Shown here: in pieces, positions 16,666 to 20,238 of the stretch
Layout: each line of letters starts with the position of its first letter
How positions within the stretch are numbered: position 1 is the stretch's first letter
Assembly: GCF_017084525.1 (NCBI RefSeq)
Contig: NZ_CP070950.1
Coordinates: 1,178,001 to 1,242,000 of the forward strand
DNA length: 64,000 nt
Direction of reading: 5' to 3'
From: Conexibacter sp. SYSU D00693
Lineage (GTDB): Bacteria; Actinomycetota; Thermoleophilia; Solirubrobacterales; Solirubrobacteraceae
Position numbers and translations under genes: made by a program
The notes under the pieces: generated by a model
Told to the model about the DNA's origin: nothing
Databases searched by the model: none
Seen by the model: the letters and a program-made list of their open reading frames with translations, nothing else

Positions 16666-17142
16666 ATGGACTTCATGGACACCCGCCGAGGCAACTACGA
16701 CTCCGGAGAGGACTTCGTCCTCGAGTACGGCGAGTTGCGCTTCACCTTCAACGAGCGCGACTTCCGCGAGCGCTGTGAGCAGGCCGCGCTGAAGCTCGGC
16801 TTCGTGCACGGCCGCCTGGACGACGGCGAGCTCGAGGACCTGGTGAACCTCGCCGTCAACGGCGAGATCCAGGACCCGGCCTCGGCCCTGGGCGAGCACG
16901 TCAACGACTGCTGGCCCGAGCTCGTCGGCCCGAGCGACCGCAGCCTCGTGCACTGGCTGCGCCGCCTCGTCTTCCGCTCCGCCTGGCTGGACCAGCGCGT
17001 GAAGGAGGGCGAGCTCGAGGTGCGCTTCCACCCCGAGGACGGCTTCACCTACGTGCAGCCCGAGCGCGGAGGCGAGCCCGTCGAGCTCGCCCCCGAGCCG
17101 AGCTGGGGCCGGGTCGCGTACCGGCCCCGCTGGGCCGCCTAG
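16666..17142 (+). CDS. Conserved-looking soluble protein of unknown function
   Basis: A 158-residue acidic protein without signal peptide or membrane helix, rich in charged and aromatic residues (for example GELRFTFNERDFRERC and SLVHWLRRLVFRSAWLDQRV). The codon usage and clean reading frame match neighbouring genes, so it is very likely real. I do not recognise a family. It converges on the Rho-like gene, and its final 14 bases plus stop are part of a 20-base tandem duplication. A second ATG nine bases later is an alternative start. Confidence 0.7.
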   Translation: MDFMDTRRGNYDSGEDFVLEYGELRFTFNERDFRERCEQAALKLGFVHGRLDDGELEDLVNLAVNGEIQDPASALGEHVNDCWPELVGPSDRSLVHWLRRLVFRSAWLDQRVKEGELEVRFHPEDGFTYVQPERGGEPVELAPEPSWGRVAYRPRWAA

Positions 17143-17168
17143 CGCCCTGCTGGGCCGCCTAGCGCCCT
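17129..17168. repeat. 20-base tandem duplication across two convergent stop codons
   Basis: The 20 bases at 17129-17148 are repeated without a gap at 17149-17168. The first copy contains the TAG stop of the upstream gene; the end of the second copy forms the stop codon of the convergent Rho-like gene. Confidence 0.9.
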
Positions 17169-18510
17169 AGGACTCGCCCTCGAGCGCGGCGACGCGCGCG
17201 GCGGCGATCGCCTCGGCGCCCGCGTCGCCCACGAGCAGCTCCGGGCGCAGCGTGCCCGAGCGCACGAGGTCGACCGCCGGAAGGCGGTTCGTGCGGGTGA
17301 GCAGCTCATCGAGCGCGATGACGGTCGTCTCGCCGCCCACCGGCGCGGTGGCCGTGGCGATGATCGTCAGCGAGCCGCCGTCGACGATGGTGCGTGCCGA
17401 GGCCATGAGCTTGCGCGCGGCGCGCGCCTCCACCCCGTCCAGCGAGTCGACGAGGACGACGGCGTCGCCGCCGCGGGCCGCCACGCGCCGGGCCGTGTCG
17501 ACCGCGCGCTCGACCGCCTGGGTCTGGGCGTCGGGACCGGTGGCGAACGTCAGCGCCGCGGCCGGCTCGACCGCCCAGCCGCTGAGCTCCTCGGGCCGGA
17601 CTCCGGCGAGCACGAGCGAGACCTCGACGCCCTCGACGGCGGCCAGCGCCTCGGCGAGGCGGCGCAGCGCCTCGGTCTTGCCGCTGTGCGCGGCGCCGCT
17701 GACCGTGACGCGCGAGCCCTTGCCGATCGGCGTCAGCCACTCGATCGCCTTCAGCGTCGGGTCCTCGGAGCCGAACGCGAAGCGCTCGGCCGGCCAGGTG
17801 GCCGGCAGCTCGTCGAACGGCGTGCCCTCGGCGACCTCGTCGGCCGGCTTGCCGTTGATGGTGTCGATGCGGACGAGCGACGGGTAGCGCTCGCTGCGCC
17901 GCGGCGCGCGGACCGGGCCCGTGACGGTGTCGCCGCTCACGAGCTCGCAGCGGCGCACCTGCGCGGCGGAGATGTAGACGTCGTCGTCGCTGGGCTCCGG
18001 CGGGGAGACGCGCAGGAAGCCCGAGCCGTTGCCGAGCAGCTCGACGGTGCCCTCGGCGATGCGCTCCTCGCGCTGGTCGCGATCGCGATCGCGATCGCGG
18101 TCGCGGTCGTCGCGGTCGTCCTCGTCGCGGTCGCGGCCGCGACCGCCCCGGCGGCCCCGGCGGCGCGAGCGCGGCGCCTCGTCCTCGTCGTCCTCGTCGC
18201 GTGCGGCGGCGGGCGTCTCGGCGGGCTCGTCGTCGCCGGCGTCCTCGTCGGTCGCGCCGTCCTCGTCGGCGGCCTTGCGACGGCTGCGACCGCCGCGCGA
18301 GCGACGGCGGCGCGGGGTCTCCTCCTCCGCGGTGGCGTCGGCGCCGGAGTCGGCTTCGGCCTCCTCGGCGCCGCCCTGGCGCTCGAGGATCGTGTCGACG
18401 AGGTCGGCCTTGCGCAGACGGCGGAAGCCGTCGATGCCGATCTCTCGGGCGATCACGTGCAGGTCGGCGAGCGGGCTGGCCTCGAGCGCCTCTCGGGTGA
18501 GCACGGCCAT
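17167..18510 (-). CDS. Rho-like transcription termination factor with a degenerate motor domain
   Basis: A 447-residue protein built like Rho: N-terminal Rho_N/SAP helices (1-45), a long Asp/Arg-rich insert (50-150), an OB-fold RNA-binding domain (153-215, GTVELLGNGSGFLRV) and a RecA-type core with P-loop SGAAHSGKT (271-279), LVDS (353-356) and GGSLTIIATA (378-387). However the catalytic stretch that is IDERPEE in E. coli Rho reads LAGVRPEE (Asp and Glu lost), the Q-loop segment between the two core strands is absent, the R-loop is shortened and the C-terminal 40 or so residues are missing. ATP-driven translocation is therefore doubtful. AGGAGGA stands before the ATG. It may be an accessory or regulatory Rho. 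Confidence 0.8.
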   Translation of the reverse strand: MAVLTREALEASPLADLHVIAREIGIDGFRRLRKADLVDTILERQGGAEEAEADSGADATAEEETPRRRRSRGGRSRRKAADEDGATDEDAGDDEPAETPAAARDEDDEDEAPRSRRRGRRGGRGRDRDEDDRDDRDRDRDRDRDQREERIAEGTVELLGNGSGFLRVSPPEPSDDDVYISAAQVRRCELVSGDTVTGPVRAPRRSERYPSLVRIDTINGKPADEVAEGTPFDELPATWPAERFAFGSEDPTLKAIEWLTPIGKGSRVTVSGAAHSGKTEALRRLAEALAAVEGVEVSLVLAGVRPEELSGWAVEPAAALTFATGPDAQTQAVERAVDTARRVAARGGDAVVLVDSLDGVEARAARKLMASARTIVDGGSLTIIATATAPVGGETTVIALDELLTRTNRLPAVDLVRSGTLRPELLVGDAGAEAIAAARVAALEGES

Positions 18511-18603: not shown

Positions 18604-19305
18604 CTAGCTGGCGGCGCCGACCGTGCCCGCCTCGCGCACGAGGCCCTCGAGCCACGTCGCGAACTCGGGCCGCTTCTGCCAGTCGGCTTCGAAGCGCTCG
18701 ATGCCCGACGTCGTCAGCGGGTGCTCGAGCATCCCCTTGAGCACCTTGTACGGGATCGTCGAGACCTCGCAGCCCGCCTTCGCCGCCTGGACGGCGTGCA
18801 TCGGGTTGCGCAGCGAGGCGGCCAGGACCTGCGAGGTGGTGCCCGCGGGACGCAGCGCGTCGACGATCTCCTCGAGCACCGCGACGGAGTCGACGGACAT
18901 GTCGTCCACGCGGCCCATGAAGCACGAGATGTACGTCGCGCCGGCCTCGGCGCTCAGCAGCGCCTGGTTGGCGCTGAAGACCAGCGTCATGTTCACCGGG
19001 TGGCCGTCCTGCGTGAGCTCGCGGGTCGCGGCCAGGCCGGCCGGCGAGAACGGCACCTTCACGACGATGTGCTCGCTGAGCGTCCGCAGCGCACGGCCCT
19101 CGGCGACCATCTGCTTGGCGTCGCGCGAGACGACCTCGGCCGAGGTCGGGCCCTGCACGAGGTCGCAGATGCGCTTGATGGCCTCGCCGGGGTCGCCCTC
19201 CTCCTTGGCGAGCAGCGACGGGTTGGTCGTCGCGCCGGAGAGCACACCCCAGGCGGCGATCTCCTCGACCTCCTTGACGGAGCCGGTGTCGATGAAGAGC
19301 CTCAT
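18604..19305 (-). CDS. tal: Transaldolase / fructose-6-phosphate aldolase family (TalC type)
   Basis: A 233-residue single-domain barrel enzyme of the short transaldolase class: N-terminal MRLFIDTGSVKEVEEI, TTNPSLLAKE near residue 35, Schiff-base Lys in HIVVKVPFSPAGL (about residue 83) and NMTLVFSANQALLSAEAGATY. It transfers or cleaves dihydroxyacetone units in the pentose phosphate pathway. The start is the ATG at 19305; an upstream in-frame start at 19338 would add a non-conserved stretch. Whether the activity is transaldolase or fructose-6-phosphate aldolase cannot be told from these motifs alone. Confidence 0.9.
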   Translation of the reverse strand: MRLFIDTGSVKEVEEIAAWGVLSGATTNPSLLAKEEGDPGEAIKRICDLVQGPTSAEVVSRDAKQMVAEGRALRTLSEHIVVKVPFSPAGLAATRELTQDGHPVNMTLVFSANQALLSAEAGATYISCFMGRVDDMSVDSVAVLEEIVDALRPAGTTSQVLAASLRNPMHAVQAAKAGCEVSTIPYKVLKGMLEHPLTTSGIERFEADWQKRPEFATWLEGLVREAGTVGAAS

Positions 19306-19338
19306 GGGACCGAGGCTACCCCGTGCCCCGGTAGGCAC

Positions 19339-20238
19339 TCAGGACCCGTCGGCCCGGATCCACTTGAGGCGCTCGTCCTCGGTGTCGAACCCGGGGACGT
19401 CGGCGCGCCCGTCGAGCACGTCGCGGACCCGCAGGAGCTCGACGGCCTCGCGGACGTCGTGGACGCGGAGCATCGCGGCGCCCGAGTCGGCCGCCCAGGC
19501 GACGGCGCCGAGGGTCGAGGCCAGGCGCTCGTGCGGCGCCCGGCCCGTGATCGCGCCCAGGAAGTACTTGCGCGAGACGGCGGCCAGCCACGGCAGGCCG
19601 TCGGGCACCCAGTGCGCCCACGCCTTGAGGACCTCGACGCTCTCGGCCGGCGACTTGGCGAAGTCCGGCCCTGGGTCGACGACCATGCGGTCGCGCGCGA
19701 CGCCGTGCTCGAGGGCGACGGTACAGCGCTCGGCCAGGAACGTCCTGACGTCGTCGACGACGGCGCCGCCGTAGTCGGGGAACGCCTTGCGCTTGGGGTC
19801 GGCCCGCGTGTGCATGACCACGAGGCCGGCGCCGGACTGCGCCGCGAGGTCGGCCAGCGCGGTGTCGCGCAGCCCGGAGACGTCGTTGAGCAGGTGCGCG
19901 CCGGCGGCCAGCGCGGCCTCGGCGACCCCGGCCTTCCACGTGTCGACCGAGACGACGACGCCCTCGGCGACGAGCGCCTCGACGAGGGGGAGGACGCGGT
20001 CGCGCTCGACCTCCTCGGGCGAGACGTCGGTGTACGTGACGCCCGACTCCCCGCCCACGTCGATGAGGTCCGCGCCGTCGCGGACGAGCTCCAGCGCCTT
20101 GGCGACCTGCGCGTCGAGGTCGGCGAGCCGGGTCGCGTCGGAGAACGAGTCGGGGTTCGCGTTGACGATGCCCATGACCAGCGGGCGGCCGTCGACGAGC
20201 TCGAAGGCCCGGTCGCGCAGGCGCAGGGTGCGGGTCAT
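19339..20238 (-). CDS. folP: Dihydropteroate synthase family protein
   Basis: A 299-residue barrel protein with most DHPS signatures: GIVNANPDSFSD (about 22-33), DVGGESG, SVDTWK, NDVSG, DPGPDFAKS, VSRKYFLG and the final RVHDV. Two differ from classical enzymes: the loop normally reading STRPG is SGVTYTD, and DPGIGFGK is DPGPDFAKS, features reminiscent of the FolP2-type paralogs that lack synthase activity in mycobacteria. So the fold is certain but pABA condensation is not. The start overlaps the reductase stop (ATGA), implying the two work together, most plausibly in pterin or folate metabolism. Confidence 0.8.
   Translation of the reverse strand: MTRTLRLRDRAFELVDGRPLVMGIVNANPDSFSDATRLADLDAQVAKALELVRDGADLIDVGGESGVTYTDVSPEEVERDRVLPLVEALVAEGVVVSVDTWKAGVAEAALAAGAHLLNDVSGLRDTALADLAAQSGAGLVVMHTRADPKRKAFPDYGGAVVDDVRTFLAERCTVALEHGVARDRMVVDPGPDFAKSPAESVEVLKAWAHWVPDGLPWLAAVSRKYFLGAITGRAPHERLASTLGAVAWAADSGAAMLRVHDVREAVELLRVRDVLDGRADVPGFDTEDERLKWIRADGS

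Follow-up and report, generated by a model that had tools for sequence, protein, structure and literature searches.

The rho locus of Conexibacter sp. SYSU D00693

The stretch of 64,000 nucleotides from Conexibacter sp. SYSU D00693 analysed here (the window) carries on its reverse strand, at 17167..18510, a gene with an ATG start whose 447-residue product is identified by its open reading frame, by Pfam and NCBIfam matches and by alignment as an orthologue of Rho without the residues of the Rho motor. In the alignment the window protein was set against E. coli Rho, further relatives and the class's canonical Rhos; residues given by letter and number refer to E. coli Rho, the reference sequence of which agrees with matches to PDB chains. 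All features described below lie on the reverse strand unless stated otherwise. The N-terminal Rho_N domain (residues 9-45, 18376..18486; PF07498, E 8.9e-9) forms three helices in the structural model, and is followed by a segment rich in Arg, Asp and Glu (residues 46-150, 18061..18375) in which 26 of 105 residues are Arg and 39 are Asp or Glu, and which is predicted to be disordered from its composition and a pLDDT of about 40 over most of its length. There follows the OB fold that houses the primary RNA-binding site (Rho_RNA_bind, residues 153-223, 17842..18054; PF07497, E 3.5e-22), where the alignment shows the equivalents of F64, R66, D78, Y80, E108, R109 and Y110 to be retained and F62 to be replaced by Ser. 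Both domains score above their Pfam gathering cut-offs, and the first-pass annotation, a reading of the DNA letters alone, had already reported the N-terminal Rho domain, the polar insert and the OB fold.

Within the RecA-like domain, Walker A (GAAHSGKT, residues 272-279, 17674..17697), Walker B (LVDS, residues 353-356, 17443..17454) and the motif GGSLTIIATA (residues 378-387, 17350..17379) are all retained in the alignment. The segment LAGVRPEELSGW (residues 301-312, 17575..17610), which should house the catalytic Glu, reads LAGVRPEE over residues 301-308 instead of IDERPEE, so that D210 and E211 have become Gly and Val while R212 and the adjoining Pro-Glu-Glu are intact; it also bears, at the position of M219, a Trp that is specific to the order. 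Only 22 residues separate D265 from the GGSLT motif, compared with 44 in canonical Rho, and by this spacing the Q-loop is missing (deletion site 17380..17445). Similarly, the distance from GGSLTI to the position of R366 is about 37 residues rather than 50, so the R-loop is missing as well; R-loop residues 323-328 are deleted in the alignment, and the remnant of the region is APVGGETTVIALD (17308..17349). In the sequence SGTLRPELL (residues 418-426, 17233..17259) the Arg finger R366 is replaced by Leu, and the residue after it is Arg. Comparison with E. coli Rho thus bears out what had been noticed about the retained motifs, the altered catalytic segment, the absent Q-loop and the reduced R-loop, and adds the loss of R366. 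The C-terminus had been judged about 40 residues short, which is an overestimate: the structural model aligns as far as E. coli residues 391-394 of 419, a shortfall of about 25-28 residues. The protein scores 168.7 bits against TIGR00767 (cut-off 509) and 177.8 bits against NF006886 (cut-off 315), so that by the curated models it would not be called a functional termination factor.

An AlphaFold2 model based on 21 family sequences has a mean pLDDT of 79, mostly about 88-97 over residues 151-447. Its best structural match is Rho (Foldseek E 3.5e-26; VIA Z 27.4 over about 310 residues), and the next are F1-ATPase subunits (Z about 21). The RecA-like domain is therefore predicted to retain the Rho fold despite the loss of the motor elements.

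Absence of a second Rho and uniformity of the losses

The window genome was assembled as one contig of 4.43 Mb, and marker genes put its completeness at 97.5%. Searching all of it with the Rho model yielded no second Rho: two candidates, L002 and L003, proved to be FliI and AtpD respectively, and a further match of 20 bits (L005) was not examined. In 11 other genomes of the order that are likewise single contigs (nine from the family of the window genome, together with G087 and G098) there was no complete Rho but in each case one Rho below the cut-off, the other matches being confined to the RecA region at the level of FliI and AtpD. The first-pass annotation had proposed that the protein began as a Rho paralog and became a subunit, which might then mix with, or regulate, a complete Rho encoded elsewhere. 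In favour of this idea, the protein resembles RecA-type ring subunits that have no catalytic role, such as F1-alpha; set against it are the absence of a complete Rho from the window genome and from the 11 others, the ancestral position of the gene beside tal, and its membership of a clade that spans the order, and it is scarcely credible. For the window genome it is refuted, unless a Rho is encoded in sequence that the assembly lacks. Two Rho_N-like stretches in other frames were also observed outside the window, at G000:C1:461159-461251 (28.6 bits) and 791694-791795 (21.4 bits).

Residue conservation was counted over 68 sequences from the family of the window genome (f1), 19 from f3, 15 from f2, nine f2 variants, four from f4 and 30 canonical sequences, where f1-f4 are the families of its order and f5-f12 the other families of the class. 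The f1 proteins are uniform in what they have lost. In all 68 the E211 position is V, A, I or T, the D210 position is G or A, the R366 position is L, I, M or V and the Q-loop columns are empty; the R-loop columns are empty in 67. In the 30 canonical sequences, which come from the same class, all of these elements are intact (with K326 as Arg). An assembly error in the core region, which had been raised as a possible source of the missing elements, is ruled out by the presence of the Q-loop deletion in 68 of 68 distinct family Rhos and of E211 and R366 in none. The ATP site is retained in f1 to a large extent (K184 in 65/68, T/S185 and D265 in 68/68), as are E214 and E215 (68/68 each) and R212 (67/68), and in the OB fold Q85 and R88 are invariant and E108, R109 and Y80 are each present in 67 of the 68.

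These counts bear on the suggestion, also made at first sight of the sequence, that the protein is a motor working differently: one that hydrolyses ATP by means of other residues (Arg 367, or Glu 214 and 215), grips RNA with other loops, and still terminates transcription. Such a motor would be in keeping with the conservation in f1 of Walker A and B, of R212 and of a basic residue at 367, and with the predicted Rho fold; moreover no other factor that could take over termination from Rho was identified, and an excess of intrinsic terminators, which was sought in 20 kb, was not seen there (two found, 1.6 expected). However, both of the loops that translocate RNA are deleted, the catalytic Glu and the Asp next to it are replaced in every f1 sequence, and the sister family f3 is without even the Walker A Lys. 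The single change E386A is enough to render M. tuberculosis Rho ATPase-deficient (PMC4499133). With E211, R366, the Q-loop and the R-loop all missing, an altered but working motor is improbable.

Descent, distribution and selection

In a maximum-likelihood tree built from conserved columns of the OB and RecA domains, the degenerate Rhos all fall into a single clade (100% support), the exact sister of which is uncertain, the branches being long. The gene immediately upstream of rho is tal (transaldolase/fructose-6-phosphate aldolase, 18604..19338; Pfam TAL_FSA), which marks the ancestral rho locus, and the next is folP (dihydropteroate synthase, 19339..20232; Pfam Pterin_bind), a conserved neighbour. 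The order folP-tal-rho is conserved throughout the order, and tal-rho is found also at the canonical rho of f9. The single order-wide clade and the tal-rho adjacency shared with f9 argue that the window gene is a rho orthologue that has decayed in place, without duplication. Downstream, and facing rho in convergent orientation across the whole order, lies a gene for a 158-residue protein (16666..17142, forward strand) with no Pfam family, whose homologues are widespread in the class. A role as a specific partner of Rho is weakened by the finding that a homologue is unlinked to rho in f8, which has canonical Rho, and that others occur in families without Rho.

Since no degenerate Rho in which the region survives has the Q-loop or R366, both were probably lost once, in the ancestor of the order, to judge from the aligned sequences. 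The families differ in what else has gone. The Rhos of f2 have D210, E211 and the C-terminus intact, and have K184 replaced by Arg in 14/15; f1, f3 and f4 have in common a larger deletion, which leaves 22 residues from D265 to GGSLT, and the loss of the R-loop. K184 is lost in f2, f3 and f4, and in f4 most of the OB contact residues have disappeared; the window protein has both the Walker A Lys and the Walker B Asp. The most reduced forms belong to f2. In genera g37 and g38 (L179-L186) the protein has about 230-290 residues, in which Rho_N is joined by a poly-Arg linker to a RecA remnant and both the P-loop and the OB fold are missing, and its gene adjoins the conserved neighbour gene wherever the locus could be read; in the g36 genome G178 a protein of 169 residues consists of Rho_N and OB fold only. 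The Trp at the M219 position is fixed in f2, in f3 and in the forms without an OB fold, and present in 64/68 of f1, where canonical Rhos have Met; on this alignment it is a new trait that these Rhos share. In one single-contig genome (G258) the rho-like gene L173 is split between two frames (402 and 196 residues), by a frameshift in the organism or an indel in sequencing.

Across the class, Rho scores above the cut-off in 47 of 399 genomes (families f6, f8, f9 and f12), and the order of the window genome has low-scoring Rhos only. The same protein is carried by Solirubrobacter, Conexibacter and Patulibacter (class Thermoleophilia, order Solirubrobacterales). No Rho OB fold was found in f5, f7, f10 and f11, including the single-contig genomes G007 and G009, and those of their weak matches to the A1 profile (1e-10 to 1e-16) that were examined proved to be FliI, so that these families seem to be a further bacterial group living without Rho. 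In the phylum, 253 of 296 genomes have a Rho above the cut-off. Outside the class, L292 (G539) has AGRT in Walker A and a shortened Q-loop, L295 (G435) has no P-loop, Ala for R212, His for D265 and a truncated C-terminus, and L293 (G610) has His for R366; these seem to represent separate degeneration of Rho in other actinobacterial lineages.

Selection was assessed from close pairs within f1, for which the median dN/dS is 0.23 for Rho_N, 0.19 for the OB fold and 0.29 for the RecA domain, dS being only roughly estimated in these GC-rich genomes. The RecA domain of canonical Rho gives 0.08. On these estimates the protein is under purifying selection, looser than that on active Rho, and because such selection persists (dN/dS about 0.2-0.3) it is probably still in use by the cell.

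A possible non-motor role and its relation to known systems

In characterised Rho, hydrolysis depends on the catalytic Glu and Arg finger, and movement of RNA on the Q- and R-loops (PMC8828861). The E386A change in M. tuberculosis Rho, equivalent to a change at E211, leaves an ATPase-deficient enzyme that unwinds inefficiently, and disruption of elongation complexes by M. tuberculosis Rho requires hydrolysis (PMC4499133). The beta-flap of RNA polymerase docks on the C-terminal Rho helices 16-18 (PMC9908020), the last of which are missing from the window protein. Since the protein lacks what this published work requires of the motor, it is very unlikely, from its sequence, to act as a classical Rho. 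Of the earlier proposal of an RNA-binding or regulatory subunit, the part that fails is a subunit beside a complete Rho; with the motor and RNA-gripping elements gone, a non-motor RNA-binding role is the best that remains. On balance we infer that the protein is a passive RNA-binding scaffold that probably binds ATP. What the sequences themselves establish is the loss of the motor residues, the single copy, the common origin and the persistence of selection; RNA binding, ATP binding, oligomerisation and the part played in the cell are inferences. After loss of the Q-loop and Arg finger in the ancestor of the order, and in f1 also of the catalytic Glu, the R-loop and C-terminal helices, selection would have retained Rho_N, the disordered Arg/Asp/Glu-rich segment, the RNA site of the OB fold and, in f1, the ATP pocket. 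Rho_N, the basic segment and the OB fold would then hold C-rich unstructured RNA passively; ATP, unhydrolysed, may serve as a structural ligand or as a switch for self-assembly, as in the non-catalytic alpha subunits of F1-ATPase; and exposed RNA might be coated, sequestered or marked without being pulled from RNA polymerase.

Several observations weigh against such a scaffold. What remains differs from one family to the next: K184 is kept in f1 and lost in f3, so that ATP binding is no common requirement; the OB fold is lost in two genera of f2, so that RNA binding by it is none either; and G178 has dispensed with the RecA domain. The basic residue at position 367 in 67/68 of f1 could be a displaced Arg finger, and the degenerate RecA domain shows about 3.5 times the dN/dS of the canonical one, which fits slow decay. 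The main rival explanation, unlikely in our judgement but to be taken seriously, is that Rho-dependent termination became dispensable in the class and rho is a relic dismantled piecemeal, its remnants functionally unrelated and of minor use at most. The distribution can be arranged to suit this view as a graded series, from the canonical Rhos of f6, f8, f9 and f12, through f2 without the Q-loop and Walker A Lys, then f1 and f3 without catalytic Glu and R-loop, then f4 without the OB site, to the f2 genera g36-g38 without OB fold or RecA domain and finally to f5, f7, f10 and f11 with no rho at all. The differing remnants of sister families are its strongest argument. A mere relic would hardly be expected, however, to persist as an open gene that keeps its place in the genome in almost every member of four families, to have a dN/dS of 0.2-0.3, or to have gained a new Trp that is fixed in f2 and f3 and nearly so in f1. 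The strongest counter-argument is the near-universal retention in f1, together with Q85, R88, D265, E214 and E215 invariant in 68 sequences. Even the absences are open to doubt: of four f1 members without rho that were checked, three lack the neighbouring 158-residue gene too and the fourth has a fragment of it only, so that some are probable contig gaps in metagenome-assembled genomes.

A bolder version of the scaffold, which we put forward as distinctly unlikely, is that the order carries out Rho's task, or some new task, through a nucleotide-binding assembly that does not hydrolyse, silencing or arresting exposed RNA solely by binding and condensation; were this so, other lineages would have pared the assembly further, to Rho_N, a basic segment and a RecA remnant. 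The purine content of coding strands, taken as a readout of Rho loss after an idea in PMC13323073, was 0.499-0.508 in families with degenerate Rho compared with 0.498-0.515 in canonical families, and does not discriminate between them. A literature search on Rho in Thermoleophilia, Solirubrobacter and Conexibacter returned nothing relevant; a 2024 survey of Rho diversification lay outside its scope, and may hold an earlier mention.

Rho is one of the most conserved transcription motors of bacteria, and here the only Rho of an order is motor-less yet selected. Either the order lives without the Rho motor or it employs Rho in some new capacity other than as a motor, and a class that spans everything from intact Rho to none offers a natural separation of the motor from any non-motor role. 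These organisms are well suited to asking how transcription is stopped, and antisense RNA kept in check, in high-GC actinobacteria that lack the Rho motor; meanwhile, their proteins should not be annotated as termination factor Rho.

With canonical Rho (E. coli, T. maritima, M. tuberculosis) the window protein shares the orthologous locus in the class, Rho_N, most primary-site residues of the OB fold, the RecA fold, Walker A and B and the R212-Pro-Glu-Glu sequence, and it differs in having no catalytic Glu, Q-loop, R-loop or Arg finger, in the absence of about 27 residues at the C-terminus and in its low scores against the curated Rho models. M. tuberculosis Rho likewise has a long polar insert between Rho_N and OB fold, but its catalytic residues are intact and its action as a motor is proven (PMC4499133, PMC8828861). 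The phase-separating Rho of Bacteroides thetaiotaomicron resembles the window protein in having a disordered region, which in the latter is predicted and could drive condensation (PMC10284900, PMC13269538); the Bacteroides protein, however, is an active termination factor. The short form of NCBIfam NF041509 (paralog_Rho2) is similar in sequence over the OB and ATPase regions (128.6 bits), but this score is far below the cut-off of 628 bits and no main Rho accompanies the window gene. The alpha subunit of F1-ATPase has a RecA fold and a nucleotide site without a catalytic Glu. While it works within a hetero-hexamer with catalytic partners, of which the window protein has none known, it is after Rho itself the next best structural match.
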